Positions 5,362 to 61,998 of a stretch of 64,000 nucleotides of DNA are shown here, in pieces (positions within the stretch are counted from its first letter, which is position 1; the number at the start of each line of letters is the position of its first letter). Both the position numbers and the translations under genes were made by a program. This stretch comes from Gracilibacillus lacisalsi DSM 19029 (GTDB taxonomy: Bacteria > Bacillota > Bacilli > Bacillales > Amphibacillaceae). Below the pieces are notes generated by a model. The model saw nothing but the letters and a program-made list of their open reading frames with translations. It was not told the DNA's origin and did not search any database. The stretch is from NCBI RefSeq assembly GCF_000377765.1, contig NZ_KB898670.1:1-64000 (forward strand). The letters run 5' to 3'.

Positions 5362-6051
5362 TTAAGCTTTTCGAACTTGTTTCTTGTAAATCACATAACT
5401 TCTTGACAAGTAACGTATAGGGAAACTGAACACATGCACCATTCTAGTAAACGGCCAAATCGATGCAAAAGCATAATTGGCAAGTAAGTGAATTTTAAAC
5501 CAAACAGGTACTTCCGCCATTAGATGCGGATCAATCCGAAATATGAATAATCCTCTAAACCAAGGTGCAATCGTTGTTCGATAGTCAAACCCATGTGAAT
5601 CGACATTCAAAAACGTTGCTGATAAACCTGATACGACAACAATCAATAAAAAGAATAAGACGGCCCAATCGCCTTTGGATGTTGTTTTTTTAATCCGTTG
5701 TACACTTAAACGACGATAACAGAGTAAAACAAGACCGATCACTGCTGCAATACCTGCTGGAATACCAAATGCAAGTGCGATAATATGGTACTGATGCTCG
5801 GTAACACCGAATGATTCATAAACAGTTATAGGGACTAATATTCCAAGAAAATGACCACCTAAGACAAACAACATTCCCCAATGAAACAAAGTCGAGCCGA
5901 TTCGCAAATGTTTTTTCTCTAAAAATTCACTTGATTTGGAAGACCAGCCAAACTGATCCTTTTGATAGCGATAAATATGACCACCAATGAATATGGTTAA
6001 CACGATATAAGGAAGGATTCCCCATAGAATCCAATCGATGGAGGCACTCAT
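5362..6051 (-). CDS. narI: Respiratory nitrate reductase gamma subunit NarI
   Basis: 229 residues, five predicted membrane helices. The diheme cytochrome b subunit takes electrons from menaquinol and passes them to NarH. The N-terminal GGHIYRYQKDQFGWSSKSSE signature is typical of NarI, with the first axial His in HIYRY and other candidate ligands in the HWGMLFVLGGHFLG segment and the C-terminal helices (KIHLLANYAF). It follows narJ by 19 bases with an AAAGGAGC-type ribosome site. Length is normal (about 225). Confidence 0.95.
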   Translation of the reverse strand: MSASIDWILWGILPYIVLTIFIGGHIYRYQKDQFGWSSKSSEFLEKKHLRIGSTLFHWGMLFVLGGHFLGILVPITVYESFGVTEHQYHIIALAFGIPAGIAAVIGLVLLCYRRLSVQRIKKTTSKGDWAVLFFLLIVVVSGLSATFLNVDSHGFDYRTTIAPWFRGLFIFRIDPHLMAEVPVWFKIHLLANYAFASIWPFTRMVHVFSFPIRYLSRSYVIYKKQVRKA

Positions 6052-6070
6052 TGTTCCGCTCCTTTCTCCT

Positions 6071-6700
6071 TTAACTTAGCTGATTATTAATTAATTGTTC
6101 ACGCATAGATTGCATGATCCGAACATCTTCTAAAGACAATGGCTTTTCTTCTACAGTTAGCGCTTCTTCCTCTACTTCCAAACCTTCAGCCTTTATCAAT
6201 GTGATCAATGCGTTTAATAAAAGATGATAAGCACTTTCGAATTTGACTAACTTATTTTTCGTTTCCACAATCGCTGCGACATGTTTTGCTAATAACTCGA
6301 GCCTTACTTCTTTTCTTACTTCCCCACAAAATTCGAGCATTAAAGGCAAGAAATCAGGAAGTTCCTTATCCGTTACTTCAAAACCAGCCGCTTCATAAAA
6401 TTTCTTCAGCTTTAATAGTTCTAAACCTCTTTCTTTTTGTTCCCCAAGCTTTAAATAAGTCATATATAAGTTAGAAGTTTTGCCGAAATCAAATACTTCG
6501 ATATAATGTTCCACCCATTGATCCTGATCCCATTCTGAGATAGTATCGAGAAAATTTGTGAGCGACTTGTTAATGGATAGCTCCTTGATTTCAGCAACAA
6601 ATCTTTGGGCTTCTTCAACCGCCAACCTATGCTCTTCCGTTGGGTAGCGAAGTAAAAAGCTGATTAACTGATAGGTGGAAGATATCACTTCCTGTTTCAT
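6071..6700 (-). CDS. narJ: Nitrate reductase assembly chaperone NarJ
   Basis: 209-residue, all-helical cytoplasmic protein of the TorD/NarJ family. It holds the NarGH complex for cofactor insertion before attachment to NarI. Visible family features are the LLRYPTEEH N-terminal motif, the FDFGKTSNLYMTYLKLGEQKERG stretch in the middle and the PDFLPLMLEF segment. Placed between narH and narI with a 13-base gap after narH and AAGGAGGG before the ATG. Confidence 0.93.
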   Translation of the reverse strand: MKQEVISSTYQLISFLLRYPTEEHRLAVEEAQRFVAEIKELSINKSLTNFLDTISEWDQDQWVEHYIEVFDFGKTSNLYMTYLKLGEQKERGLELLKLKKFYEAAGFEVTDKELPDFLPLMLEFCGEVRKEVRLELLAKHVAAIVETKNKLVKFESAYHLLLNALITLIKAEGLEVEEEALTVEEKPLSLEDVRIMQSMREQLINNQLS

Positions 6701-6713
6701 ACTATTTCCCTCC

Positions 6714-8189
6714 TTAGGTCAAGACGCCACAGCTTCCTGGTCCACCAGCAAAGTCAAGACCACATGCACCTTGATCCTCATATAAATCACGAACATCTTC
6801 ACGGTGGCTTTTTGGAATCACAAAACGATCATCATACTTCGCAATCGATAATAAACGGAACATCTTTCTTGTTTCTTCTTTCGTTAGACCTAATTCCTTC
6901 ATGATCTCTTCATCAAAAGATTTTCCGGTTGTTTCTGCTCGCATAAAACTTCTCATCACCGCCATTTTTTTCAGTACAGTCCGTATATGATCCGTATTTC
7001 CGGCTGTTAAAAGGTTGGCAAGATACTCAATAGGAATACGCATATCATCAATGGCAGGGAAAATATCGTCAACGTCTGCTACACTGCCCTTTCCTTCAAT
7101 TACGTTCATCACAGGGCTTAGTGGTGGGATGTACCATACCATTGGCATTGTGCGGTATTCGGGATGTAAAGGTAATGCGATTTTCCAATCCATAATCATT
7201 CGATAAATAGGTGACTCTTGTGCTGCTTCGATCCAGTCATCATGGATACCATCTTTTTTCGCTTGTTTGATCACCTCTGGATCATTTGGATCTAAAAATA
7301 TTGTTAATTGTTCTTCATATAATTTATCTTCATCTTCAACAGATGCTGCTTCTAATACGCGATCTGCATCATATAGCATGACACCGATATAGCGGATACG
7401 GCCAACACATGTTTCAGAACAAATCGTCGGCTGGCCATTTTCAATACGTGGATAACACATTGTACATTTTTCCGCTTTATTTGTTTTCCAGTTAAAATAT
7501 ACTTTTTTGTAAGGACAAGATGTTACACAATGACGCCATGCTCGGCATGCATTTTGATCCACTAATACAATACCGTCTTCATCTCGTTTATACATGGCAC
7601 CTGAAGGACAAGAAGATACACATGGTGCATTAATACAATGTTCGCAAATTCGTGGAAGATACATCATAAATACGTCTTCGAACTCCGTTTTGATTGATTC
7701 TTCCATTTGCTCAACGTTAGGGTCACGCAAACCTGTTATATGACCACCAGCCAAGTCATCTTCCCAGTTCGGTCCCCATTCCAGATCCATAAACTCACCA
7801 GTGATAGCTGATTTTGCACGAGCTACCGGTTGATGTTTACGTTCTTCGGAATTCGTTAACTTTTCATAATCATAGTTCCATGGCTCATAGTAATCATCAA
7901 TAGTTGGTTGATATGGATTATAAAAAAGGTTCATCAACCGTTTTGTTTTGGAACCTGATTTTAATTTCAATTCTCCCTTGCTATCTAGCTCCCAACCACC
8001 TTTATAATGGTCCTGATCTTCCCAGCGTTTCGGATAGCCGATACCAGGTTTTGTTTCGACATTGTTAAAGTACATATATTCTGCACCCGGACGATTTGTC
8101 CAGGTGTTTTTACACGTTACACTGCATGTATGACAACCAATACATTTGTCTAAATTCATGACCATCCCGATTTGTGCTTTAATCTTCAA
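6714..8189 (-). CDS. narH: Respiratory nitrate reductase beta subunit NarH
   Basis: 491 residues, iron-sulfur electron-transfer subunit. Four Cys groups are visible: CIGCHTC near residue 16, CEHCINAPC and CRAWRHC in the centre, and CTMCYPR. The Trp in CRAW replaces one Cys, as expected for the [3Fe-4S] centre next to NarI. I chose the TTG at 8189 (MKIKAQIGMVMNLDKC), which matches B. subtilis NarH and has AGAGGAGG 9 bases upstream; a TTG three codons earlier has poor spacing. It overlaps the end of narG by 11 bases, so translation is coupled. Confidence 0.95.
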   Translation of the reverse strand: MKIKAQIGMVMNLDKCIGCHTCSVTCKNTWTNRPGAEYMYFNNVETKPGIGYPKRWEDQDHYKGGWELDSKGELKLKSGSKTKRLMNLFYNPYQPTIDDYYEPWNYDYEKLTNSEERKHQPVARAKSAITGEFMDLEWGPNWEDDLAGGHITGLRDPNVEQMEESIKTEFEDVFMMYLPRICEHCINAPCVSSCPSGAMYKRDEDGIVLVDQNACRAWRHCVTSCPYKKVYFNWKTNKAEKCTMCYPRIENGQPTICSETCVGRIRYIGVMLYDADRVLEAASVEDEDKLYEEQLTIFLDPNDPEVIKQAKKDGIHDDWIEAAQESPIYRMIMDWKIALPLHPEYRTMPMVWYIPPLSPVMNVIEGKGSVADVDDIFPAIDDMRIPIEYLANLLTAGNTDHIRTVLKKMAVMRSFMRAETTGKSFDEEIMKELGLTKEETRKMFRLLSIAKYDDRFVIPKSHREDVRDLYEDQGACGLDFAGGPGSCGVLT

Positions 8190-11100
8190 GCCAATCAACC
8201 TCCTCTAGTTTGCGAATGACGACATGTAAGTCACGTTGATTTCCTGTCGGTCCATAATAGTTAAAGCCGTAGCTAAGCTGTCCGTATCCGCCAATCATAT
8301 GGGTAGGTTTCATATGAATTTTGGTTGGACTATTATGAGTACCTCCGCGATTTTTCGTTAAGTTGGTTCCAGGTACGTGAATATGACGGTCCTGTGCATG
8401 ATGCATAAATGCCATCGTCCTCGGAATCCGGTGTGACACAACTGCTCTGGCAACGACCACACCATTACGGTTAAAGCATTCGATCCAGTCATTATCTTCA
8501 ATACCAGCCTCACTTGCATCATCTTTGTTAAGCCAAATAGTTGGACCGCCTCTGAATAAGGTCAGCATTGGCTGTGCATCATAATACATACTGTGAATCG
8601 ACCATTTGTTGTGTGGAGTCAAGTAATTTAAGGTTATTTCTTTCCCTTCCACTGGCGGGCGATCCTTCTTAAACGGTGTATGGTGAAGCATTGGTTTATA
8701 CGTCGCCATTTCTTCTCCAAATTCTTTCATCATTTCGTGATCTACAAAGTATGACTGTCTTCCGGTTATCGTACGGAACGGAATTAATTTTTCGATATTG
8801 GTAGTAAAAGGGGAGTACCTTCTGCCACCTTTTTCTGAGCCACTAAATGCCGGGGACGTAATGACTGTTTTGGGCTGAGCATTAATTTGCTCAAAGGTAA
8901 ACAGTTCTTCCTCACGTTCTTCCGCTAAATCTTTCAGCTCTAAGTTTGTTTGTTTCTCTAATGCTTCCCACGCTTTCACGGCTACTTTACCGTTTGTCGT
9001 TGATGAAAGCCGTAATATTGCTTCACATGCACCGCGAGCATCGGTGATATTGGGTAAGCCTTTTGATATACCTTCCTCTTCTACTTGACCAATCGCATGC
9101 TTCGTTTGTTCATATTCCTTTTCCATGGACCAGTTGATTCCTTTACCACCGTAAGGATTTTTTGCAATATTATCTCCCAGTGAAGTGAACTTTTTATATA
9201 GTTGTTTATAATCACGTTCTACGACATGAACATTTGGCATAGTTTTACCTGGAATTGGTTCACATTCACCTTTTGACCAGTCTTTGATTTCACCTAATGG
9301 TTGTGCAATTTCTTGTGGTGTATCATGTTGTAATGGGCTTGTGACAATTTCCTTAAATGCTTCAAAATCTACTTCTTCTGCTAAATCAGAGATCCCTTTT
9401 GCTAATGCTTTGAAAATATCCCAATCCGATTTTGCTTCCCATGGTGACGAAATTGCTGGATTGAACGGGTGTACAAACGGGTGCATATCGGTACTGGATA
9501 AATCGTGTTTCTCATACCATGTTGCTGCTGGCAAAATCACATCGGAATAAAGACCGGTTCCTGCCATACGGAAATCTAAGTCAACCAGTAAATCTAACTT
9601 TCCTTCTGGTGCTTGATCACGCCACTTTATTTCTGATGGGCGTAGGCAGTCTTGATCATCATTTAATAATCCATGATCTGCACCTAGTAAATGCTTTAAG
9701 AAATATTCATGACCTTTTCCCGAGCTAGAAATTAAATTGGCTCTCCAGACAAAAAGGGTTCTTGGATAGTTGACCGGATTGTCCGGGTCTTCTATGGAAA
9801 ATTCTAGTTTTTTCTCTTTTAATTGATCGGCCACATATTTACCGATTTCTTCTTGTGTTTGGTTACCAGCTTTCACCGAATCTTCGTATACTTTCGTACT
9901 GTTTTGCTTAAATGTTGGATAAGATGGTAACCAACCTAGCCTTGCTGCTAACACATTATAATCTGCTGGATGTTCGTATCTTGCCTCGTCAACCGTTTTG
10001 GCTGTTAACTCATTGATCGATGTTTCTTCATAGCGCCATTGATCCGTTGCAAAATAGAAAAAGGATGTTCCATTTTGTAGTTTCGGTGGTGCCTGCCAAT
10101 CTTTTGCGGTGGCTATCGTGTTCCATCCTTCGGCAGGACGTAACTTCTCCTGACCGACGTAATGTGCCCAGCCCCCGCCGTTTACACCTTGAGCACCAAC
10201 CATGATCACCAGATTGACTACCGCTCTGTAAATCGCATCGGAATGGAACCAGTGGTTAATGCCTGCTCCGACAATGATCATCGAGCGGCCATTGGTATCA
10301 ATCGCATTTTGCGCAAACTCACGAGCAATTTTGGTTACTAGATTTCGATCGACACCAGTAATTTTCTCTTGCCATGCCGGTGTGAAAGCTTCGATCTCAT
10401 CATAGGATGAAGCAACTTCACCGCCAATGCCACGGTCAATACCATAATTAGCGAGCATTAAATCATAAACCGTTGTAACATACTCGATTTTCCCATTGAT
10501 TGCTACTTGTTTCACCGGAATGTTACGCTTCATCGTTGATCTTGTATTAGCATCGAAATAAGCAATTTCTACTGTTTTGATCGTATCCTCGATTCCTAAA
10601 AAGCCAAGAACTGGTTCGATTTTTTCCCCATTCCGTTCATCAATTAGTTTGAGGTTCCATTTGCCCTCTTTATCCCAGCGACTACCCATCGTTCCTTGCG
10701 GCAAAGCGAAATCTTCTGTTAAAGCATTGTACATTAACGGCTTCCATTCACTATTGGTCGTTTCTAGTGCTAAATCCTTCGCATGTAGAAAACGGTCGGC
10801 AATATAAGTATCTCCTTTTTGCTTTAATTTTACGGTAAAAGGAAAATCAGTATATTGTTTAGCATAGTCTTCAAAATATGGCGTGCGATTTTTTTGATAA
10901 AACTCATTTAAAATCACGTGTCCCATCGCCATCGCAACAGCACCATCTGTACCTTGTTTCACCGACATCCAATCATCTGCGAATTTGGTCGATTCAGCAT
11001 AATCCGGACTAACGGACACTACTTTTGTTCCTTTATATCGTGCTTCCGCCAAAAAGTGTGCATCTGGTGTACGGGTTAGTGGTACATTTGAGCCCCAAGT

Positions 11101-11862
11101 CATAATATAACCGGCATTGTACCAATCTGAGCTTTCCGGTACATCTGTTTGATCTCCCCAAATTTGCGGGGATGCTGGTGGCAAGTCTGCATACCAATCG
11201 TAAAAACTAAGCATTGGTCCACCGAGCAGTGACATAAAGCGACTTCCTGCCGCATGACTAACCATGGACATCGCCGGAATTGGTGAAAAACCAATATTAC
11301 GATCTGATCCATATGTTACCGTTGTGTATAATACAGATGCCGCTACTAATTGAGTGACTTCTTGCCAATCGGAACGGACTAAACCACCTTTGCCTCGTGC
11401 ACTTTTATACATTCGTGCTTTTTCCGGGTCCTCCACAATACTCTTCCATGCATCTAACGGATTTTCATGTATCTTTAAAGCTTCACGCCATAACATTAAT
11501 AATTTTTTTCTGACATAAGGATATTTAACACGCAGCGGACTGTAAATATACCAAGAAAAGCTTGCTCCCCTTGGGCAGCCACGTGGTTCAAAGTCTGGCA
11601 TGTCTGGTCCTGTAGAAGGATAATCAATTGATTGCCCTTCCCATGTTACAATGCCATCTTTTACAAATATATTCCAGCTACAAGAGCCCGTACAATTGAC
11701 ACCATGTGTAGAGCGAATCACTTTGTCATGCTGCCATCTTCTGCGATAGACATTTTCCCAATCCCGATCACCTTCCTGTAATTGGCTATGATCGTTTGCA
11801 TATTTTTCTTTTGGTTTTAGATAATTCATACGTTGCCATAATGGAGATTTTTTGTTTGGCAT
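8179..11862 (-). CDS. narG: Respiratory nitrate reductase alpha subunit NarG
   Basis: 1227 residues, the molybdenum-bisMGD catalytic subunit that reduces nitrate to nitrite at the inner face of the membrane. The N-terminal cluster segment HGVNCTGSCSW (His53, Cys57, Cys61) is the FS0 [4Fe-4S] motif with the His ligand typical of NarG. There is no twin-Arg signal, as usual for Bacillus. The MPNKKSP start at 11862 has GGAGGG 6 bases upstream; a longer frame to 11928 would reach into the promoter. First gene of narGHJI-TPR, behind an FNR box. Confidence 0.96.
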   Translation of the reverse strand: MPNKKSPLWQRMNYLKPKEKYANDHSQLQEGDRDWENVYRRRWQHDKVIRSTHGVNCTGSCSWNIFVKDGIVTWEGQSIDYPSTGPDMPDFEPRGCPRGASFSWYIYSPLRVKYPYVRKKLLMLWREALKIHENPLDAWKSIVEDPEKARMYKSARGKGGLVRSDWQEVTQLVAASVLYTTVTYGSDRNIGFSPIPAMSMVSHAAGSRFMSLLGGPMLSFYDWYADLPPASPQIWGDQTDVPESSDWYNAGYIMTWGSNVPLTRTPDAHFLAEARYKGTKVVSVSPDYAESTKFADDWMSVKQGTDGAVAMAMGHVILNEFYQKNRTPYFEDYAKQYTDFPFTVKLKQKGDTYIADRFLHAKDLALETTNSEWKPLMYNALTEDFALPQGTMGSRWDKEGKWNLKLIDERNGEKIEPVLGFLGIEDTIKTVEIAYFDANTRSTMKRNIPVKQVAINGKIEYVTTVYDLMLANYGIDRGIGGEVASSYDEIEAFTPAWQEKITGVDRNLVTKIAREFAQNAIDTNGRSMIIVGAGINHWFHSDAIYRAVVNLVIMVGAQGVNGGGWAHYVGQEKLRPAEGWNTIATAKDWQAPPKLQNGTSFFYFATDQWRYEETSINELTAKTVDEARYEHPADYNVLAARLGWLPSYPTFKQNSTKVYEDSVKAGNQTQEEIGKYVADQLKEKKLEFSIEDPDNPVNYPRTLFVWRANLISSSGKGHEYFLKHLLGADHGLLNDDQDCLRPSEIKWRDQAPEGKLDLLVDLDFRMAGTGLYSDVILPAATWYEKHDLSSTDMHPFVHPFNPAISSPWEAKSDWDIFKALAKGISDLAEEVDFEAFKEIVTSPLQHDTPQEIAQPLGEIKDWSKGECEPIPGKTMPNVHVVERDYKQLYKKFTSLGDNIAKNPYGGKGINWSMEKEYEQTKHAIGQVEEEGISKGLPNITDARGACEAILRLSSTTNGKVAVKAWEALEKQTNLELKDLAEEREEELFTFEQINAQPKTVITSPAFSGSEKGGRRYSPFTTNIEKLIPFRTITGRQSYFVDHEMMKEFGEEMATYKPMLHHTPFKKDRPPVEGKEITLNYLTPHNKWSIHSMYYDAQPMLTLFRGGPTIWLNKDDASEAGIEDNDWIECFNRNGVVVARAVVSHRIPRTMAFMHHAQDRHIHVPGTNLTKNRGGTHNSPTKIHMKPTHMIGGYGQLSYGFNYYGPTGNQRDLHVVIRKLEEVDWLED

Positions 11863-11928
11863 CTTGATCCCTCCGTGTTCCCAATTTCTATTGCTTATGT
11901 TCATTAAATCACGAACACACCAATACAA

Positions 11929-11948
11929 GGTGTGAACAACATCACACC
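11929..11948 (-). promoter_or_regulatory. FNR box of the nar operon
   Basis: Perfect palindrome with 7-bp arms: GGTGTGA-ACAACA-TCACACC, whose core TGTGA-N6-TCACA (11931-11946) is the Bacillus FNR consensus. The centre is about 33 bases before a TTTAAT -10-like element (11908-11903, minus strand), which puts it near -42, the class II activator position. Anaerobic activation of nar by FNR is established in B. subtilis. Rex sites have a related palindrome, so a Rex contribution cannot be excluded. Confidence 0.83.
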
Positions 11949-52581: not shown

Positions 52582-52878
52582 TTAACCAAATAATTGCTTT
52601 TTGGCTTCTAAACTCATCTGTGAGGGATTCCATACAGGCTCCCATACTAATTCAACGGTAACATTCTCTATTTCATCTATTTGCAGTAATCGGTTTTTGA
52701 CACCATTTACAATACTATCATGCATAGGACATCCTGGTGTCGTTAATGTCATTTTTATAAAAACATCATTCGATTCAGCTATTTGAATGTCATAGACCAA
52801 CCCTAAATCAACAATATTTATTGCTAATTCCGGATCTATTACCTCATACAAAGCTTCTTCTATCACTTCACGATCCAT
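52582..52878 (-). CDS. DUF59/MIP18 family metal-sulfur cluster assembly factor
   Basis: 98 residues. YEVIDPELAINIVDLGLVYDI and TLTTPGCPMHDSIVNGV are the DUF59 signature, with the conserved Cys in TPGCP. Relatives (SufT, PaaD) help mature Fe-S proteins. I chose ATG at 52878, 8 bases after GAGGAG; the GTG 3 codons earlier overlaps the site. Last gene of the DUF2249 operon, 13 bases after the membrane protein, which suggests it serves a cluster protein of nitrogen-oxide metabolism. Confidence 0.87.
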   Translation of the reverse strand: MDREVIEEALYEVIDPELAINIVDLGLVYDIQIAESNDVFIKMTLTTPGCPMHDSIVNGVKNRLLQIDEIENVTVELVWEPVWNPSQMSLEAKKQLFG

Positions 52879-52891
52879 CGCTTCCACTCCT

Positions 52892-54139
52892 CTATTTAAA
52901 TAAAACCAATATCATCGATAGCGCATAGACCATTGACACAATCATCATAACGCCTTGTGCTATCCACACACCTACTCCAATTTGAGCTAACAACGATCCA
53001 ATCAATACCACTACACTAATTGTTAAAATCACAAAAAGGATTACTGCTAATTTTTCATTGATCATCTCTTTTAAAGTCGGTACTTTTTCTTTCCCAATAT
53101 TGTCTGCGTATTGTTTGGTCCACCATAAAAAAGGGACAATTTTATATAAATAACCTAAAATACTGAAAATAATCCAACACATAATATAACTAAATAAAAG
53201 AATACCCCAATGAAAGACTGATTGTAGATCGATAACAACTAAAATCACAGCAATAATATGGATAACGTTCCCAAGTAAAATGGCAAACAAGGAAAAAACA
53301 AAGGCTTTATCCAACTTTCTTTTCAAACGATTTCGGTAGATGATGTACATATTATAGGTAAATAATGTGAAGCCAATTGCTAATAACAAAAAACCGATTA
53401 CTTGTACATAGGCTATTTGTATCCAAAACGAAACAGATACAAATAGTAATCCCATGCTATAACTGCAGATCGCATATTTGCCGTAATGAGTAGGATAATC
53501 ATGTGATAAACTGAACATAGGGACCAATTTATAAGAAAAGCCGAAAATCAACAGGCTAAACCATCCCGCTACTCCGAACAAGATATGGGTGTAAAAAATC
53601 GATTCATGGAACGGTATACCTTTTGTTGCAAAACTATAAGCAAGCAAAAAACCTGCTGCTATGGTCAAAAAGAGCATAACTAGTGCTGTCTTTACAAAGG
53701 CATACATAATTGATTTTTTCTCTGTTTGACGAAGTGTAATAACCATTTGGAGCAAAAACATACAAATCCCTATTACAACCATGACTGCTCCATAAATGGA
53801 TTGAGCGGGACTTATTGCTAATAAAACGACAAAGATGACCACACCAGAACAACTGAATAGTAATGGGAAATACGCTAGCTTTTGTCGGCAAATACTCGCT
53901 AAAAACACAACAGGAACAAGTTGGTACATTGCCCCCATCGCAACAATCATCGCAAATCCTAATAGCAATAGATGGGCTGCAGACCAAATTCCAGGTATGC
54001 GAAAATGTCCTTGTAAAATGGATGTACTGTTCCAAAAAATGATAATCTGTGCAACTACAAAAGCGACTATGCCAAAAACAATAAAACTTAATGGTAATCG
54101 AATATCGGTCGTACTCTTGATGTTTCCAGTTGTCATCAT
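52892..54139 (-). CDS. Twelve-helix membrane protein, NnrS/heme-copper subunit I-like
   Basis: 415 residues, about 12 helices. Two similar segments carry a His and an LVP turn: AAHLLLLGFAMIVAMGAMYQLVPV and THILFGVAGWFSLLIFGFSYKLVPMF; further His are in GNVIHIIAV and FHWGILLFSY. This resembles NnrS and subunit I-like proteins that bind heme in nitrogen-oxide metabolism, but not a full catalytic site: the His-His pairs of oxidases are absent. It starts one base after the DUF2249 stop; ATG at 54139 or 54136. Confidence 0.6.
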   Translation of the reverse strand: MMTTGNIKSTTDIRLPLSFIVFGIVAFVVAQIIIFWNSTSILQGHFRIPGIWSAAHLLLLGFAMIVAMGAMYQLVPVVFLASICRQKLAYFPLLFSCSGVVIFVVLLAISPAQSIYGAVMVVIGICMFLLQMVITLRQTEKKSIMYAFVKTALVMLFLTIAAGFLLAYSFATKGIPFHESIFYTHILFGVAGWFSLLIFGFSYKLVPMFSLSHDYPTHYGKYAICSYSMGLLFVSVSFWIQIAYVQVIGFLLLAIGFTLFTYNMYIIYRNRLKRKLDKAFVFSLFAILLGNVIHIIAVILVVIDLQSVFHWGILLFSYIMCWIIFSILGYLYKIVPFLWWTKQYADNIGKEKVPTLKEMINEKLAVILFVILTISVVVLIGSLLAQIGVGVWIAQGVMMIVSMVYALSMILVLFK

Positions 54140-54140
54140 T

Positions 54141-54359
54141 TTACTCACCACGCTTTGTAATCATTATCTTAAAACTGCCATCCTGTTGGGGTTCTGTTAC
54201 ATAATCAAAGCCCAGTTCATCTAATTCTTCATATAAAAACATTGGTCTTCGATCATTGATAATGGTCAACACTTCACCAACTGTCATCGTTTCTAATTGA
54301 TTCAAGGTGCGAATCATCGGTTGAGGCGGCTCCATCCCTCTGTTATCTAATATGATCAT
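54141..54359 (-). CDS. DUF2249 domain protein (TusA-like fold), first of the pair after the long one
   Basis: 72 residues. LDNRGMEPPQPMIRTLNQLETM gives the Pro-Pro motif of the TusA/DUF2249 fold and the end is the FDYVTEPQQDGSFKIMI strand. The catalytic Cys of TusA is replaced (PPQPM instead of CPxP), so sulfur transfer is unlikely. DUF2249 genes cluster with nitrite, NO and hemerythrin genes. It overlaps the preceding DUF2249 gene by 17 bases, GAGGTG before its ATG. Confidence 0.8.
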   Translation of the reverse strand: MIILDNRGMEPPQPMIRTLNQLETMTVGEVLTIINDRRPMFLYEELDELGFDYVTEPQQDGSFKIMITKRGE

Positions 54360-54597
54360 CAGCCTTCACCTCTTTTCGATAGATGACTTTCCAATGTTTC
54401 CTTTCGATTTTCTCAGCTTGATAGATATATCCCTTACGTCCTAATAGTTTATGCAATGGTATCGGATTAAATGGCGTATGTAGTATAAAAGCTTGATTCT
54501 CTTTTAACCCTTTGACAGTTCCCATAATTTTATCGAATGGTTCTTTTTTTAACGCTAAATCTTCACGGACGTCTAGTTCCACATATTCTTCCGTCAT
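54343..54597 (-). CDS. DUF2249 domain protein
   Basis: 84 residues: LDVREDLALKKEPFDKIMGTV, LHTPFNPIPLHKLLGRKGY and ERKHWKVIYRK show the DUF2249 pattern. First gene of a four-gene operon with the next DUF2249, a membrane protein and a DUF59 factor. ATG at 54597 is 7 bases after GGAGG; the adjacent ATG at 54600 is equally possible. An FNR-like box lies about 100 bases upstream. Function unknown; by context linked to nitrogen oxides or respiratory enzyme maturation. Confidence 0.8.
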   Translation of the reverse strand: MTEEYVELDVREDLALKKEPFDKIMGTVKGLKENQAFILHTPFNPIPLHKLLGRKGYIYQAEKIERKHWKVIYRKEVKADDHIR

Positions 54598-54695
54598 CAT
54601 TATCCCTCCTTCCCTCTTTATCACAATGCTAATCGTCGATAAGACATCCACCAATGGAAGTCTATCTATATGATAGTCATTATCAATTAAAAGAG

Positions 54696-54713
54696 AAGTG
54701 ATTTTGGTCACTT
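54696..54713. promoter_or_regulatory. FNR-type box between the DUF2249 operon and ctaA
   Basis: AAGTGA-N6-TCACTT, a perfect 6+6 palindrome with the FNR spacing and the GTGA/TCAC core. Its centre is 32 bases from a TATCAT -10-like element (54675-54670, minus strand), the class II position for the DUF2249 operon. It could also influence ctaA. Confidence 0.6.
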
Positions 54714-54789: not shown

Positions 54790-55602
54790 TTGTTGAAGAC
54801 TAAATTACTTGTAGTGATTGTCCTAACGTATATGTTGATTGTTTTTGGAGGTTATGTAGCATCATCCGAATCAGGAATGGGATGTGGACCGGAATGGCCG
54901 TTATGTAATGGAGCGGTGATACCCGAATTACAGGGTGATACTTTAATCGAGTTTGCCCACCGTGTGATTGGACTTATTTTGTTTTTATTGTTCAGCCAGA
55001 TTGTCCTACAAATTCATAAGAAGAAACGATATCAGCATCTTAAAACTATTTCGTTACACAGTTATTTGTTACTCCTATTTCAAATTATAGCGGGGGCTGT
55101 CGTAGTGATTCTGGATTTGCCTGCTCTTGTTGTGACACTGCATCTTGTGTTAGCCATGATTTTTTCTGGGTTATTACTTTATCTCTATCATCATACAAAT
55201 GACACCCTTTTTTATGAAAAGAAGCCCATACATTTGCCATTATTGTTATTAGTCCTACTCATCACAATAGGATTGGGCGCCTATATCAAGCACACATCGA
55301 TTGGTCTAGCATGTAGTTGGTTGGATTGTCACGGAACATTTATGCCGACCTCCTTAGTAGAATGGATACAAACGATCCATAGAGTTTTTGCTCTTATTAG
55401 TTTTGTATATCTCATTTTTGTCACTTTTATTTATCGCAACCGTTCTATACTGATTGCGCTCGTTTTATTTGTTATCCAAGTGACAGTTGGTATTATCACC
55501 ATCTTAACCAAGATAGATATGTTCTGGAGTGTATTACATTTAGCCTTTGCCACTGCTGTTTACTATCTTGTGTTAGATGCATGGCTGCAACCAAGAAAAT
55601 AA
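54790..55602 (+). CDS. ctaA: Heme A synthase CtaA (COX15 family)
   Basis: 270 residues, seven or eight helices. The four conserved His are visible in EFAHRVIG, TLHLVLAM, TIHRVFAL and VLHLAFAT, and two Cys pairs in CGPEWPLC and CSWLDCHG. It converts heme O to heme A for terminal oxidases. TTG at 54790 is 6 bases after AAGGAGGG; a second TTG follows directly. Shorter than B. subtilis CtaA (306). It stands alone, with no ctaB, and is divergent from the DUF2249 operon. Confidence 0.88.
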   Translation: MLKTKLLVVIVLTYMLIVFGGYVASSESGMGCGPEWPLCNGAVIPELQGDTLIEFAHRVIGLILFLLFSQIVLQIHKKKRYQHLKTISLHSYLLLLFQIIAGAVVVILDLPALVVTLHLVLAMIFSGLLLYLYHHTNDTLFYEKKPIHLPLLLLVLLITIGLGAYIKHTSIGLACSWLDCHGTFMPTSLVEWIQTIHRVFALISFVYLIFVTFIYRNRSILIALVLFVIQVTVGIITILTKIDMFWSVLHLAFATAVYYLVLDAWLQPRK

Positions 55603-57550: not shown

Positions 57551-57931
57551 TTATTCAACGATCAATGTTGCCACCATATCTTCATGACCAGCACCACAAG
57601 GAACTGAACATCTGATCGTATACTCGCCTGCTTCTAAAGTTGCTGTTTCAGAACCTGCATCATCCAATGCAATATCAGTACCTTCTATTTCAATACCGTG
57701 GAAACCTTCTTCGTTCGTTAGGTTTACTGTAACTTCACCAGCTGGTACCGTATATTCTTCTTGATCAAATTGCCAGTTAGATGCCTGAATATCTACTGTT
57801 TCACCATCACCGCTTGCAGTTTCTCCAGCTTCTCCATCGTTATTTGAACTTCCTTCATCATCACCGCCACCACAAGCTGCAAGCACAAGTGCTAATGATA
57901 ATGTCATCATGCTTAAAAGAATTTTTTTCAT
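57551..57931 (-). CDS. CuA-type cupredoxin lipoprotein
   Basis: 126 residues. Lipoprotein signal LALVLAACGGG, an acidic Gly/Ser linker (about 20-45), then a cupredoxin domain. GFHGIEI and CSVPCGAGHEDM supply every CuA ligand (His, Cys, Cys, His, Met), as in oxidase subunit II, but there is no anchoring helix. It is an extracytoplasmic one-electron carrier held by lipid. Start at 57931 follows AAAGGGG. It is divergent from the heme-copper operon with two FNR-type boxes between; it may be its electron donor or a copper-loading partner. Confidence 0.87.
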   Translation of the reverse strand: MKKILLSMMTLSLALVLAACGGGDDEGSSNNDGEAGETASGDGETVDIQASNWQFDQEEYTVPAGEVTVNLTNEEGFHGIEIEGTDIALDDAGSETATLEAGEYTIRCSVPCGAGHEDMVATLIVE

Positions 57932-58004: not shown

Positions 58005-58020
58005 TATGATTTTAATCACA
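58005..58020. promoter_or_regulatory. FNR-type box 1 of the heme-copper region
   Basis: TATGA-N6-TCACA, 9 of 10 FNR consensus positions. Its centre is about 30 bases from a TTTATG -10-like element for the CuA lipoprotein gene on the minus strand. Confidence 0.6.
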
Positions 58021-58027
58021 CTCAGAT

Positions 58028-58043
58028 TGTGATATGGCTCACT
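58028..58043. promoter_or_regulatory. FNR-type box 2 of the heme-copper region
   Basis: TGTGA-N6-TCACT, 9 of 10 consensus positions, centred 32 bases before TATGCT (58065-58070), the likely -10 of the plus-strand operon. This is the class II activator distance. Confidence 0.65.
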
Positions 58044-58102: not shown

Positions 58103-58228
58103 ATGTATTCCAATACAAAGAAATCAAAGTATTCCATGTCAGGAACGATCGCCTCTGTCACTATTGTTGCTCTAGTCATTATTTTGATGTGGGCAGGTGT
58201 ATTCGCTATTTATATGGCTAGAGTGTGA
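58103..58228 (+). CDS. Single-helix small subunit of a ba3-like heme-copper enzyme
   Basis: 41 residues, MYSNTKKSKYSMSG then one helix of about 22 residues. GGAGGTCACAAA precedes the ATG. It sits directly before subunits II and I, the same place and size as the subunit IIa of Thermus ba3 oxidase (34 residues). The assignment rests on size, topology and position, not on a motif. Confidence 0.7.
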   Translation: MYSNTKKSKYSMSGTIASVTIVALVIILMWAGVFAIYMARV

Positions 58229-58323: not shown

Positions 58324-58785
58324 ATGAGTAAATTAGAAGAAATTTGGATGACAGTAAGTATTGGGATTCTCGTTATCTTTATGGTGATTGTTGGTTACCA
58401 AACCTATGCCTTAGGAATGGGACCACCAAGTCATAAAGAAACGATCGATCCACAAGAAGTTGAACAAACCGCTCCATTTGATAACCCGGGTCTAATTGAT
58501 CTTGGAGACAACCAATACGAACTAGTTATGACGTTAGAAGCGTTTGCGTTTAACCCAGGAAATGTCGAAGTGCCTGTTGGAGCAGAGGTCGAATTTACGA
58601 TGACCTCAAAAGATGTATCACATGGTATTCAAATTCCAGGAACAAATGTAAATGCGATGGTGTTACCTGGTCATATTCAAAAAATCACTCAAACATTTGA
58701 TGAACCTGGCGAATATTTAGTTGTATGTAATGAATATTGTGGTGTTGGTCATCAAGCAATGTTTACCACCATTACAGTGAAATAA
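58324..58785 (+). CDS. Heme-copper enzyme subunit II with CuA site (ba3 type)
   Basis: 153 residues. One N-terminal helix (about 8-30) and a cupredoxin domain. CuA ligands: His100 (DVSHGIQI), Cys135, Cys139, His143 and Met146 (CNEYCGVGHQAM). One anchor helix and short length mark the ba3 group. It accepts electrons from a cytochrome c or cupredoxin and passes them to subunit I. The ATG at 58324 follows AAGGAGGG; an earlier ATG at 58225 adds a stretch without ribosome site. Confidence 0.92.
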   Translation: MSKLEEIWMTVSIGILVIFMVIVGYQTYALGMGPPSHKETIDPQEVEQTAPFDNPGLIDLGDNQYELVMTLEAFAFNPGNVEVPVGAEVEFTMTSKDVSHGIQIPGTNVNAMVLPGHIQKITQTFDEPGEYLVVCNEYCGVGHQAMFTTITVK

Positions 58786-58797
58786 GGAGGGGCAAAA

Positions 58798-60477
58798 ATG
58801 GAACAGGCAAAACATATTGGATTGAGAGAAAATGTAATAAGTAAATTAGGAGTTAACCCTCAAGATGCTATAATTGCACTCACTTATTTTACCATTTCAT
58901 TTGCAACATTATTAATTGGTGGGTTATTAGGGTTAATTCAAGGATTAGAGCGCGCCGGTCTGTATTCATTACCGGCAGGATTTAATTATTATCAAGTCTT
59001 ATCTGCACACGGACTTTTATTGTTAGTTGTTTTTACTGCTACATTCACGATTGGGTACCAACTTGCAAATCTTTCCCATTCATTTAATGGATTACTACCT
59101 AAAGTCCGCAAAATGATATGGGTTGGTATTGTATTAAAGGTAATTGGTGTTGTGCTTGCCGTAACCATGATTGTTTTAGGTGAAGCATCAGTATTATACA
59201 CTTTCTATCCACCTTTGGCAGCACACCCCATATTTTACATCGGATTAGTTCTACTAGTGTTAGGTATTTGGTCTGTAGCTTTTGGTGTATTTATCAACTA
59301 TCGTCATTGGCGAAAAGAAAATCCAGGGCAACCAACACCAATTCTTGCTTTCTTTGCAATGGGTGTGTTTGTACTATGGTTCTTTGCAAGTCTCGGTGTA
59401 ACGATTGAAGTATTTATGATTATCCCATGGGTTTTAGGATGGGTAGAGACGATTAATGTAATGGTTACAAGAACACTGTTTTGGTGGTTTGGTCACACTC
59501 TCGTTAATATTTGGTATCTTGTTGCTACTTCTGCATGGTATATTATTGTACCGAAAATAGTAGGTGGTAAACATTTCAATGAGAAACTAATTCGTTTAGT
59601 GGTTATTTTACTTGTTGTATTGAATATTCCAGGTGGTTTCCACCATCAAATTATCGATCCTGCTATCTCATTATCAATTAAATTCTTACACGTCTTCATG
59701 AGCCTGTCGATTGCAGTTCCATCCTTGATGACTGCCTTTGCCATGTTCTATGTACTAGAAAAAGCAGGACGTAAAAAAGGTGGCAAAGGATTATTTGGAT
59801 GGTTTAAAAAGCTGCCATGGGGCGATGTTCGTTTTCTTGCACCAATGATTGCCATGATTGCCTTTATTCCAGGTGGTGCAGGTGGCATTGTCAACACTAG
59901 TAACCAAATGAATCAAGTCGTTCATAATACGATGTGGGTTGTCGGACACTTCCACGTCACCGTAGGGGTATCTGTTGTACTTACATTCTTTGGCATTTGT
60001 TATTGGTTAATTCCACATTTATCTAAGCGTCAATTAACAGCTAAAATGAATAAGGTTGGTGTGATTCAAACTTGGATTTGGACAATTGGCATGACCATTA
60101 TGGCCGGTTCGATGCATCTAGCTGGCTTAGTCGGAGATCCTCGTCGTACTTCTGATACAACATATGCTGGTCATGAAACGGCATTAAGCTGGTTGCCATA
60201 TGAGTATGTCTTTGCAACTGGCGCAACCTTACTGTTGATAGGTGTCATTATTCAGGTATATGCCGTGTTTAACATGATGTTCTTTGCTCCAAAAGGGAAA
60301 ACAGAATATCCAGTGGCAGAGCCGGAGGATGATCAACCAAAAGTGCCGATGTGGACAGAACGCTGGGGGCTATGGGCCATTGTTCTACTTGCTGTTGTTG
60401 CAATGGCATATGTGATTCCAATTGTAGACATGATTGTTAATGCACCTCCAGGTTCTCCACCGATCAAAACATGGTAA
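58798..60477 (+). CDS. ba3-like heme-copper subunit I lacking the catalytic Tyr (candidate NO reductase)
   Basis: 559 residues, about 13 helices. Heme and copper ligands are all present and, by chance, almost numbered as in Thermus ba3: His71 (SAHG), His233 (WWFGHTLVN), His282 and His283 (GGFHHQ), His384 and His386 (GHFHV). But the segment after His233, which is HPIVY in ba3, reads HTLVN: Asn237 stands where the cross-linked, catalytic Tyr237 belongs. Oxygen-reducing members need that Tyr; NO reductases of the superfamily lack it. So NO reduction to N2O is likelier. GGAGGGG before the ATG; 12 bases after subunit II. Confidence 0.85.
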   Translation: MEQAKHIGLRENVISKLGVNPQDAIIALTYFTISFATLLIGGLLGLIQGLERAGLYSLPAGFNYYQVLSAHGLLLLVVFTATFTIGYQLANLSHSFNGLLPKVRKMIWVGIVLKVIGVVLAVTMIVLGEASVLYTFYPPLAAHPIFYIGLVLLVLGIWSVAFGVFINYRHWRKENPGQPTPILAFFAMGVFVLWFFASLGVTIEVFMIIPWVLGWVETINVMVTRTLFWWFGHTLVNIWYLVATSAWYIIVPKIVGGKHFNEKLIRLVVILLVVLNIPGGFHHQIIDPAISLSIKFLHVFMSLSIAVPSLMTAFAMFYVLEKAGRKKGGKGLFGWFKKLPWGDVRFLAPMIAMIAFIPGGAGGIVNTSNQMNQVVHNTMWVVGHFHVTVGVSVVLTFFGICYWLIPHLSKRQLTAKMNKVGVIQTWIWTIGMTIMAGSMHLAGLVGDPRRTSDTTYAGHETALSWLPYEYVFATGATLLLIGVIIQVYAVFNMMFFAPKGKTEYPVAEPEDDQPKVPMWTERWGLWAIVLLAVVAMAYVIPIVDMIVNAPPGSPPIKTW

Positions 60478-60514: not shown

Positions 60515-60755
60515 GAATATCTTCATTTATCCATGGAAGAGAGGGCTTTTCCAGGGAGCAGAATTTCTCTTCATGGGATATCTGTTCCACTTCCCGGGAT
60601 ATCTTCACTTATCCATGGAAGAGAGAGCTTTTTCCAGGGAGCAGAATTTCTCTTCATGGGATATCTGTTCCGCTTCCCGGGATATCTTCACTTATCCATG
60701 GAAGAGAGAGCTTTTTCCATGGAGCAGAATTTCTCTTCCATGGATATGGATTAGG
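60515..60755. repeat. 83-bp tandem repeat array, nearly three copies
   Basis: Units start at about 60515, 60598 and 60681 (period 83; the first has one base less). Each opens ATATCTTCA-TTATCCATGGAAGAGAG, then CTTTTTCCAGGGAGCAG, then TTTCTCTTCATGGGATATC. The first and last blocks are near complements (TCCATGGAAGAGA against TCTCTTCATGGGA), so each unit can fold as a hairpin. Frames through it shift between copies, so it is not coding. It lies between subunit I and sco. Confidence 0.85.
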
Positions 60756-60820
60756 GAAAGTTCTAATCAAAGAGTTCTTCTCAGCCTCTACTCAATCTAT
60801 AGCAAAAGGTGGTGCTTGGT

Positions 60821-61447
60821 TTGACTAAGCATGAAAGAATCGCAGTTAGTGTTATCATACTTTTTGGGTTAGTTGTTTTCTTGGTTGGCACAGATGGCTT
60901 TCAAGCTTTTACAACAGAACAAGCACGCACTAATCAATTAATTAAAGAACAACCTCAGGTTCCAAACGTAGAACTAGAAGACAGTAAAAGTCGTACTTAT
61001 TCGATTGAGGAGTTACAACAAAATAAATATTTATTTATTACTTTTATGTATACTAATTGTGCTACTGTCTGTCCACAATTAGAACGTAACATGCAAGAAG
61101 TTTATCAGCAATTGCCTGTTTCCATGATCAAAGATGATATTCAATTTTTAAGTATTAGCTTTGACACCGAACATGATGATCCAGAAACACTGGAAAAATA
61201 TCGGAGCTATTTTGACAGTGATGGAGAAACATGGCGCATGGCACGAATAAATGATCAAGAAGAATTAACGAGTTTGCTAGATCAACTTGGTGTTATTGTG
61301 ATCCCAGATGATTATGGTAATTTCCAACACAATACAGCTTTTTATTTAGTTGACAAGGATGGCTATTTAATCGATGTGATGGATTACACCGAAATTGATC
61401 AGGCAGTTGAACGAATTAAATCTGTGATCGGAGGAGATTCCGCATGA
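60821..61447 (+). CDS. SCO1/SenC family copper chaperone
   Basis: 208 residues with one N-terminal anchor helix (about 10-26) and a thioredoxin-like domain outside. Copper-site CATVC (Cys-x3-Cys) near residue 79-83 and the distant His in FQHNTAFYLV. It loads copper into CuA of subunit II. TTG at 60821 is 7 bases after AAAGGTGG; an in-frame GTG at 60809 is the alternative. 340 bases after subunit I, beyond the tandem repeats. Confidence 0.87.
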   Translation: MTKHERIAVSVIILFGLVVFLVGTDGFQAFTTEQARTNQLIKEQPQVPNVELEDSKSRTYSIEELQQNKYLFITFMYTNCATVCPQLERNMQEVYQQLPVSMIKDDIQFLSISFDTEHDDPETLEKYRSYFDSDGETWRMARINDQEELTSLLDQLGVIVIPDDYGNFQHNTAFYLVDKDGYLIDVMDYTEIDQAVERIKSVIGGDSA

Positions 61448-61998
61448 AACAGACAAGGTATGGTCTACTATTATTTATTTTTTTAATCCTACCTCCTGTT
61501 GCCGATTTATTAGAGTCGATTATGATCTTTCATATGCATACGCAAATGCCTTTAATTGTTTTTGCTGGTTTTCTGATGACACCTTTTTTCCAAAAAAAGT
61601 TCCCAAATTTTTTTATGAAATGGAATCGTTCAGGAATTCCAGGCATCTTGTTAGTAATCTTAATCTGGTCCTATTGGCAAATTCCTCGAGCAATGGATGA
61701 TGCCTTAACCCATTCCCATGTGGAAATCTTTAAGTTTATCAGTCTACCTTTTTTAGCGGGAATACCACTTCGTGATAGCTGGCGAAAGATCAAAAACAAT
61801 GGGCAATTTATATTTTTAGTCTATTTACTTGCTACATTGATTGTCACTGGTTTTCTTTATATTTGGGTAGATGAGCAAATTTGCAATAATTATTTAATCA
61901 TTGAACAGCAAACTCTCGGTTGGGGTTCCTTAGCAATGGCTGCCTGTTTGTTGTTATATTTAGTTTACCGTCAGTTTGAGAAAGATGAAGGAGTTTAG
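61444..61998 (+). CDS. Membrane protein of the heme-copper cluster (DUF1404/CtaG-like, uncertain)
   Basis: 184 residues, five helices. HMHTQMPLIVFAGFLM near residue 30 and the TFSHVEIF-like LTHSHVEIFKFISLPFLAGIPLRDSW segment have His residues suited to copper or heme binding. Small His-bearing membrane proteins like this follow subunit genes of ba3-type enzymes and are thought to assist assembly. ATG overlaps the sco stop (ATGA). The name is a guess from context. Confidence 0.6.
   Translation: MKQTRYGLLLFIFLILPPVADLLESIMIFHMHTQMPLIVFAGFLMTPFFQKKFPNFFMKWNRSGIPGILLVILIWSYWQIPRAMDDALTHSHVEIFKFISLPFLAGIPLRDSWRKIKNNGQFIFLVYLLATLIVTGFLYIWVDEQICNNYLIIEQQTLGWGSLAMAACLLLYLVYRQFEKDEGV

Follow-up and report, generated by a model that had tools for sequence, protein, structure and literature searches.

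The closest described relatives of the locus considered here are the CuA-dependent nitric oxide (NO) reductases first characterized in Bacillus azotoformans. A complex purified from that organism as an NO reductase was linked in 2012, through the N-termini of its subunit II and small peptide, to a gene cluster with the order cbaC1-cbaB1-cbaA1-senC1-cbaD1, in which a Tyr-to-Asn change marks the catalytic subunit; cytochrome c551 was described as its specific electron donor (PMC3475470). The same report assigns to this family, by sequence, a gene of Neobacillus bataviensis, BABA_00225 (printed as 46749_45067). Reduction of NO by CuANOR is electrogenic, with many features of the proton path kept (PMC5826923). 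The family, formerly qCuANOR type I, is now named bNOR and occurs in 123 of 433 Bacillota genomes bearing a NOR or NosZ; KEGG labels it coxA (PMC11388526). An earlier note on this DNA had expected automated annotation to call the gene a cytochrome c oxidase subunit I. Both the family and the Tyr-to-Asn change that marks it have been in print since 2012 (PMC3475470), and the enzyme described here is a further member. A literature search on Gracilibacillus and nitric oxide reductase returned no paper.

We analysed a stretch of 64,000 nucleotides (the window) from a Gracilibacillus-like bacterium, in which the catalytic subunit (subunit I, cbaA) is encoded on the plus strand at 58798-60477 by an open frame of 559 residues without internal stop. 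The tree, the published gene order, the residue at position 237 and the upstream FNR-type boxes agree in making a CuA-dependent NO reductase the best reading, as the earlier note had proposed; a gene that general annotation calls cytochrome c oxidase very probably specifies an NO reductase, and we are highly confident that the locus is a bNOR operon, with a predicted activity of converting NO to N2O. Preceding subunit I, also on the plus strand, are a small single-helix subunit of 41 residues resembling cbaC (58103-58228; CoxIIa, E 7.2e-4, 19.8 bits, just below the 20.7 cut-off) and a CuA subunit II of 153 residues, cbaB (58324-58785; E 1.1e-39 to 1ehk chain B); following it on the same strand are a Sco/SenC protein with a putative role in copper insertion (60809-61447; PF02630, E 6.9e-16) and a multi-helix membrane protein like cbaD, a member of the published cluster (61444-61998). 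The order small peptide, subunit II, subunit I, Sco, membrane protein corresponds to cbaC-cbaB-cbaA-senC-cbaD, and the small subunit, CuA subunit II and Sco protein are all present where the note had placed them, near subunit I. Subunit II keeps the CuA ligands (His, Cys-x3-Cys, His, Met), has Glu at the residue aligned with Thermus Glu15(II) and, as judged by eye, contains one N-terminal helix; its start is probably at 58324 (RBS GGAGG) rather than at an upstream GTG.

With the published type I systems of B. azotoformans and N. bataviensis the locus shares gene order, an upstream small helix peptide (about 41-46 residues in this family), Sco protein, membrane protein, six metal-ligand His residues and the Tyr-to-Asn change (PMC3475470, PMC11388526), as well as the length of subunit II, for which 462 bases are printed in the case of cbaB1 (PMC3475470). 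Subunit I is 65% identical to BABA_00225. The same arrangement recurs widely among 80 related loci, kept from 135 confirmed by scan: cbaB is a neighbour in all 80, Sco in 76 and cbaD in 75, and a loose search found a similar small peptide in 54. Missing flank genes are explained by a contig end in two loci (L072 and L009); in three others of the 80 (L014, L070 and L081) neither gene was found in the flank although the locus continues.

The feature that sets subunit I apart is a single codon, AAT at 59506-59508 (plus strand), which reads Asn237 in the context GHTLVNIWY, opposite the cross-linking Tyr of the ba3 oxidases, as claimed from the first reading of this DNA. A sequence search of the PDB returned Thermus ba3 subunit I as top relative, and in the alignment with Thermus thermophilus ba3 (1xme chain A, E 8.6e-106) Asn237 pairs with the Tyr of HPIVY, the chain numbering of 1xme running about 6 ahead of the literature Tyr237. 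The six metal-ligand His residues named in the note (71, 233, 282, 283, 384 and 386) are all present. Position 237 is Asn, and each of the six His is conserved, in 80/80 of the related loci. A subunit I match was found in 69 of 120 genomes of the window's own family, and in 46 of those 69 at 60% identity or more; Asn237 was present in 31/31 orthologues read of these 46 (including the window's own copy and that of genome G106), and Tyr in 20/20 lower-identity paralogues read. The orthologue and 80-locus counts overlap, some representing the same species, and are not independent. The Asn is not due to chance. A structural model of subunit I, built on 22 sequences (mean pLDDT 78.8, pTM 0.84), has Thermus ba3 as best structural match (TM 0.84), so that PDB alignment, the 80 loci and model all indicate the B-family heme-copper fold with its six metal-ligand His residues. 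Seven NCBIfam families matched subunit I, none at its cut-off.

In a tree of 56 sequences the 24 Asn-bearing bNOR proteins form one clade (SH-aLRT 100), separate from 22 Tyr-bearing oxidases, and 10 type II proteins occupy a distant long branch; the tree was a quick build, and its long branches drew a warning from the tool. The tree test that the note had proposed thereby comes out in favour of an NO reductase. The bNOR clade contains a published member, the N. bataviensis LMG 21833 gene at contig02 46749-45070 (L027), which by its coordinates is BABA_00225 (PMC3475470). The gene of the purified B. azotoformans enzyme, BAZO_06399, lies outside the loci compared, so the link to that enzyme runs via a homologue assigned by sequence. 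The protein does not fall with cNOR or qNOR, the C-family-like NORs of the NorB sequence family that have no CuA subunit II, as its best PDB relatives are ba3 and a CuA subunit II is present, and at position 237 it departs from the O2-reducing ba3 oxidases in having no cross-linking Tyr.

From these features we infer, on the evidence of sequence, conservation, phylogeny, gene order, upstream boxes and the gene content covered by the search, the catalysis, the metal and heme content, the electron and proton routes and the regulation of the enzyme. Type I enzymes are further characterized by menaquinol and cytochrome c551 as donors for the reduction of NO to N2O, and by their heme b and metal content. 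Electrons would pass from CuA of subunit II to a low-spin heme of subunit I (His71, His386) and on to a high-spin heme (His384), which would pair with a metal whose ligands are His233, His282 and His283; these ligand roles we take to be those of ba3. At the site formed by the high-spin heme and this metal, two NO molecules would be joined and reduced to N2O. Four-electron reduction of O2 relies on a redox-active Tyr that is cross-linked to one of the metal-ligand His residues. Asn237 cannot fill that place, and the two-electron reduction of NO needs no such residue. Tyr248, Ser309 and Thr312, which belong to the K-type proton path of Thermus, are kept in 24/24 bNOR sequences of the tree. Since the K-type path (Glu of subunit II, Tyr248, Thr312, Ser309) is retained except at position 237, protons would probably be drawn from the cytoplasm and NO reduction would probably be electrogenic, in line with what is reported of the B. 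azotoformans enzyme.

Two FNR-type boxes, each with one mismatch to the consensus, lie upstream of the operon on the plus strand, at 58005-58020 and 58028-58043, bearing out the note's mention of such boxes here. The window alone contains six FNR-type sites against 2.86 expected, a weak excess reached by 9 of 100 shuffles; the strong evidence comes instead from conservation across loci, where a box occurs within 250 bases upstream in 62 of the 80, with 67 sites in total against 0.63 expected from single-base shuffles. In the 26 of the 80 loci with no detected small peptide, the stretch scanned was placed by estimate from subunit II. A scan for promoters and terminators yielded no more than shuffled sequence did. 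FNR would probably switch on transcription of the operon when oxygen is absent. The nitrate reductase genes that the note had counted among the neighbours are present in the window, as narGHJI on the minus strand at 5362-11928 (narG and narI identified through a family search, narH and narJ by visual inspection), at a distance of about 46 kb, and are context rather than neighbours of the operon. An exact FNR-type box lies directly upstream of narG, at 11931-11946.

The gene-content search covered NirK, NosZ and NarG. It returned no NosZ match in the genome beyond CuA-domain stretches and no NirK-like protein, the best candidate being a 600-residue protein at 66 bits against a curated cut-off of 296; NirK-like frames of relatives (354-387 residues), at 188-207 bits, also fall under that cut-off. 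With narG present and NirK-like and NosZ genes not found, the probable role of the enzyme is to respire or remove NO, either formed from nitrite or released by neighbouring organisms, and the release of N2O by a bacterium in which the search detected no NirK-like or NosZ gene is a prediction of this analysis. NarG was above cut-off in 10 of the 15 bNOR genomes examined and not above it in the remaining five, so that bNOR is not always set in a context of nitrate respiration. It is quite conceivable, at somewhat less than even chances in our judgement, that the enzyme serves mainly in detoxification of outside NO or in its removal under microoxic conditions rather than in energy-conserving denitrification: the missing NirK-like and NosZ matches and the five genomes without NarG above cut-off are in keeping with such a role, and aerobic NO reduction in microoxic places has been suggested for B. 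azotoformans (PMC11388526). The FNR-type boxes and the kept proton path, on the other hand, fit anaerobic, energy-conserving use. Detoxification and the bNOR assignment entail the same chemistry and differ in physiology only, so that confidence in one does not come at the expense of the other.

Far less probable, indeed very unlikely in our estimation, is that subunit I still belongs to an O2-reducing oxidase of the ba3 type, working either with no cross-linked Tyr or with a Tyr supplied from elsewhere. The fold, the six His residues and most of the K-type path are as in ba3, and a bNOR-specific Tyr240, present in 79/80 loci and in 23/24 bNOR sequences of the tree, is two turns from His233 and shares with it and Asn237 the helix modelled at 221-254. 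Tyr240 is, however, seven residues from His233, by geometry presumably too far for the known cross-link; the Asn is invariant, the clade is distinct, a true ba3 with its Tyr coexists in the genome, and the B. azotoformans complex was purified as an NO reductase (PMC3475470). A Tyr that at least 76 of the 80 bNORs keep, and that the genome's own ba3 lacks, occurs only at positions 30, 87 and 240. Asn276 and Ile277 stand six and five residues ahead of the HH pair's first His, and of these Asn276 is bNOR-specific (24/24 sequences of the tree), and Tyr244, kept in 22/22 of the Tyr-bearing sequences, is missing from 24/24 bNORs. On conservation, then, no Tyr visibly takes over the part of Tyr237; a Tyr supplied from another helix belonged to the outcome that the note had named as refuting an NO reductase. 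An O2 reductase with a Tyr from elsewhere is rejected on this pattern rather than on coordinates. Thermus-type ba3 oxidases reportedly reduce NO slowly as well, so NO activity alone could not separate bNOR from ba3. That Asn237 reflects a pseudogene or a sequencing error is ruled out by the confinement of the change to a single codon in an open frame and by the Asn in 80/80 loci.

A PF00115 search identified five heme-copper subunits I in the genome, including copies on contigs C7 and C14, and two of the five bear directly on the comparison. The ba3 on contig C15 keeps HPLVY and is 49% identical to the window's subunit I. With this oxidase and Thermus 1xme, representing the B-family ba3 / b(o/a)3 type, the window enzyme has in common the fold, the His ligands, a CuA subunit II and most of the K-type path, and it differs in having Asn where they, like the 20 family copies read, have Tyr237. 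With a bNOR and a true ba3 side by side in one genome, the role of Tyr237 can be addressed in a natural pair. The second relevant gene (C9:72652-74109, or 8649-10109, minus strand, of locus L093) lies about 12 kb beyond the window's subunit I on the same contig and encodes an Asn-type subunit I with the motif HVFAN, which is accompanied by a separate set of genes for a CuA subunit II, a Sco protein and a membrane protein. This paralogue resembles qCuANOR type II, of the kind of BAZO_04705-04710 (PMC3475470). Type II and the window enzyme both have Asn at the Tyr position and adjoining genes for a CuA subunit II, Sco and membrane protein, whereas the C9 subunit has 486 residues, is 22% identical to that of the window over 234 residues and sits on the distant branch of the tree, where Asn occurs in 10/10 type II sequences. 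Type II subunit I was found in 21 of the 120 family genomes; a c551 gene lies about 7-9 kb from it in at least 10 genomes.

The window operon differs from the published type I clusters in adjoining a divergent gene for a CuA lipoprotein, a possible electron donor, and in belonging to a genome in which no c551-type lipoprotein was found. The gene (57551-57931, minus strand) specifies a lipobox, LAAC, followed by the ligand set His, Cys-x3-Cys, His, Met; its product best matches, in the PDB, the CuA domains of ba3 (E 3.3e-10), and the lipobox Cys and all five CuA ligands are kept in 29/29 copies examined. Its placement varies: the gene is divergent in Gracilibacillus, lies downstream of cbaD in both Aquibacillus and Salirhabdus, and in Halobacillus andaensis comes directly after cbaA. 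In genome G106 it is located upstream of a gene for a NirK-like protein, and an Asn-type bNOR lies about 4 kb further along. No c551-like lipoprotein is among the three c-type domains found in the genome by PF13442, which occur in a 274-residue frame, in a small c550-like protein that has an N-terminal helix and lacks a lipobox, and in a stretch of a 389-residue frame on C7. No such CuA lipoprotein was found described in the literature searched, most subscription journals being outside that search.

Comparison of the 46 bNOR genomes (at least 60% identity) suggests a change of donor. Thirteen have no c551-type match, and all 13 have the CuA gene, 12 of them within about 3 kb of bNOR; all 18 that lack the CuA gene have c551, and 15 have both. 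Each of the 13 has a c550-like protein with no lipobox, and in 12 of them PF13442 detects no other small cytochrome, genome G040 adding a c-type lipoprotein of 103 residues. These counts include CuA matches at E 2.3e-19 or better (50 of the 120 genomes, three weaker ones having been dropped) and c551 matches that start at query residue 1 or 2 (at least 69 genomes), the latter listed to about E 5e-17, so that weaker ones may have escaped notice in genomes other than the 13 whose cytochromes were read. One explanation, possible but in our view rather doubtful, is that a clade of Gracilibacillus, Aquibacillus and Salirhabdus lost c551 and that the adjoining lipid-anchored CuA protein took over, with electrons passing from CuA to CuA. 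The association among the 46 genomes (p = 0.0005) is uncorrected for kinship and rests on one or two changes on the tree; over 30 genomes, adjacency to bNOR changes once, c551 twice and the CuA gene seven times, so that the pattern is essentially one event. Against a change of donor stand also the 22 of 50 CuA-gene genomes that have no bNOR and four genomes of one genus in which the gene is instead close to a Tyr-type ba3. Alternatively, the lipoprotein may deliver copper to subunit II. Two stricter proposals were rejected: that c551 and the CuA lipoprotein are mutually exclusive in general, by their distribution over all 120 genomes (Fisher p 1.0), and that the lipoprotein is strictly a NOR partner, by its matches in 53 of 120 genomes at E 1e-8 (some of them weak and to other proteins) and its position near the Tyr-type ba3 in the four just mentioned. 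The CuA lipoprotein poses a small, testable question about the supply of electrons to bNOR.

Several further features of the region were recorded. About 2.5 kb upstream of the operon, at 54790-55602 on the plus strand, is a gene for a CtaA/COX15-like protein (E 1.7e-29), found near bNOR in 1 of the 80 loci. A set of genes on the minus strand at 52582-54711, near bNOR in 2 of the 80, encodes two DUF2249 proteins, a protein with a FeS_assembly_P domain and a multi-helix membrane protein of 419 residues (52892-54151) that has no Pfam match even at E 1. Two bNOR loci come from records named for other groups, one as Arthrobacter (L022; 40% G+C, grouping with Sporosarcina in the tree) and one as Pseudomonas (L058; a contig of 7,986 bases, 46% G+C); misnaming or contamination of these records is more likely than spread of bNOR beyond Bacillota. 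The gap between subunit I and Sco contains, at 60517-60747, an 83-base tandem repeat in 2.8 copies with long imperfect inverted repeats, and a related array is present in another of the loci (L006, 8758-8974).
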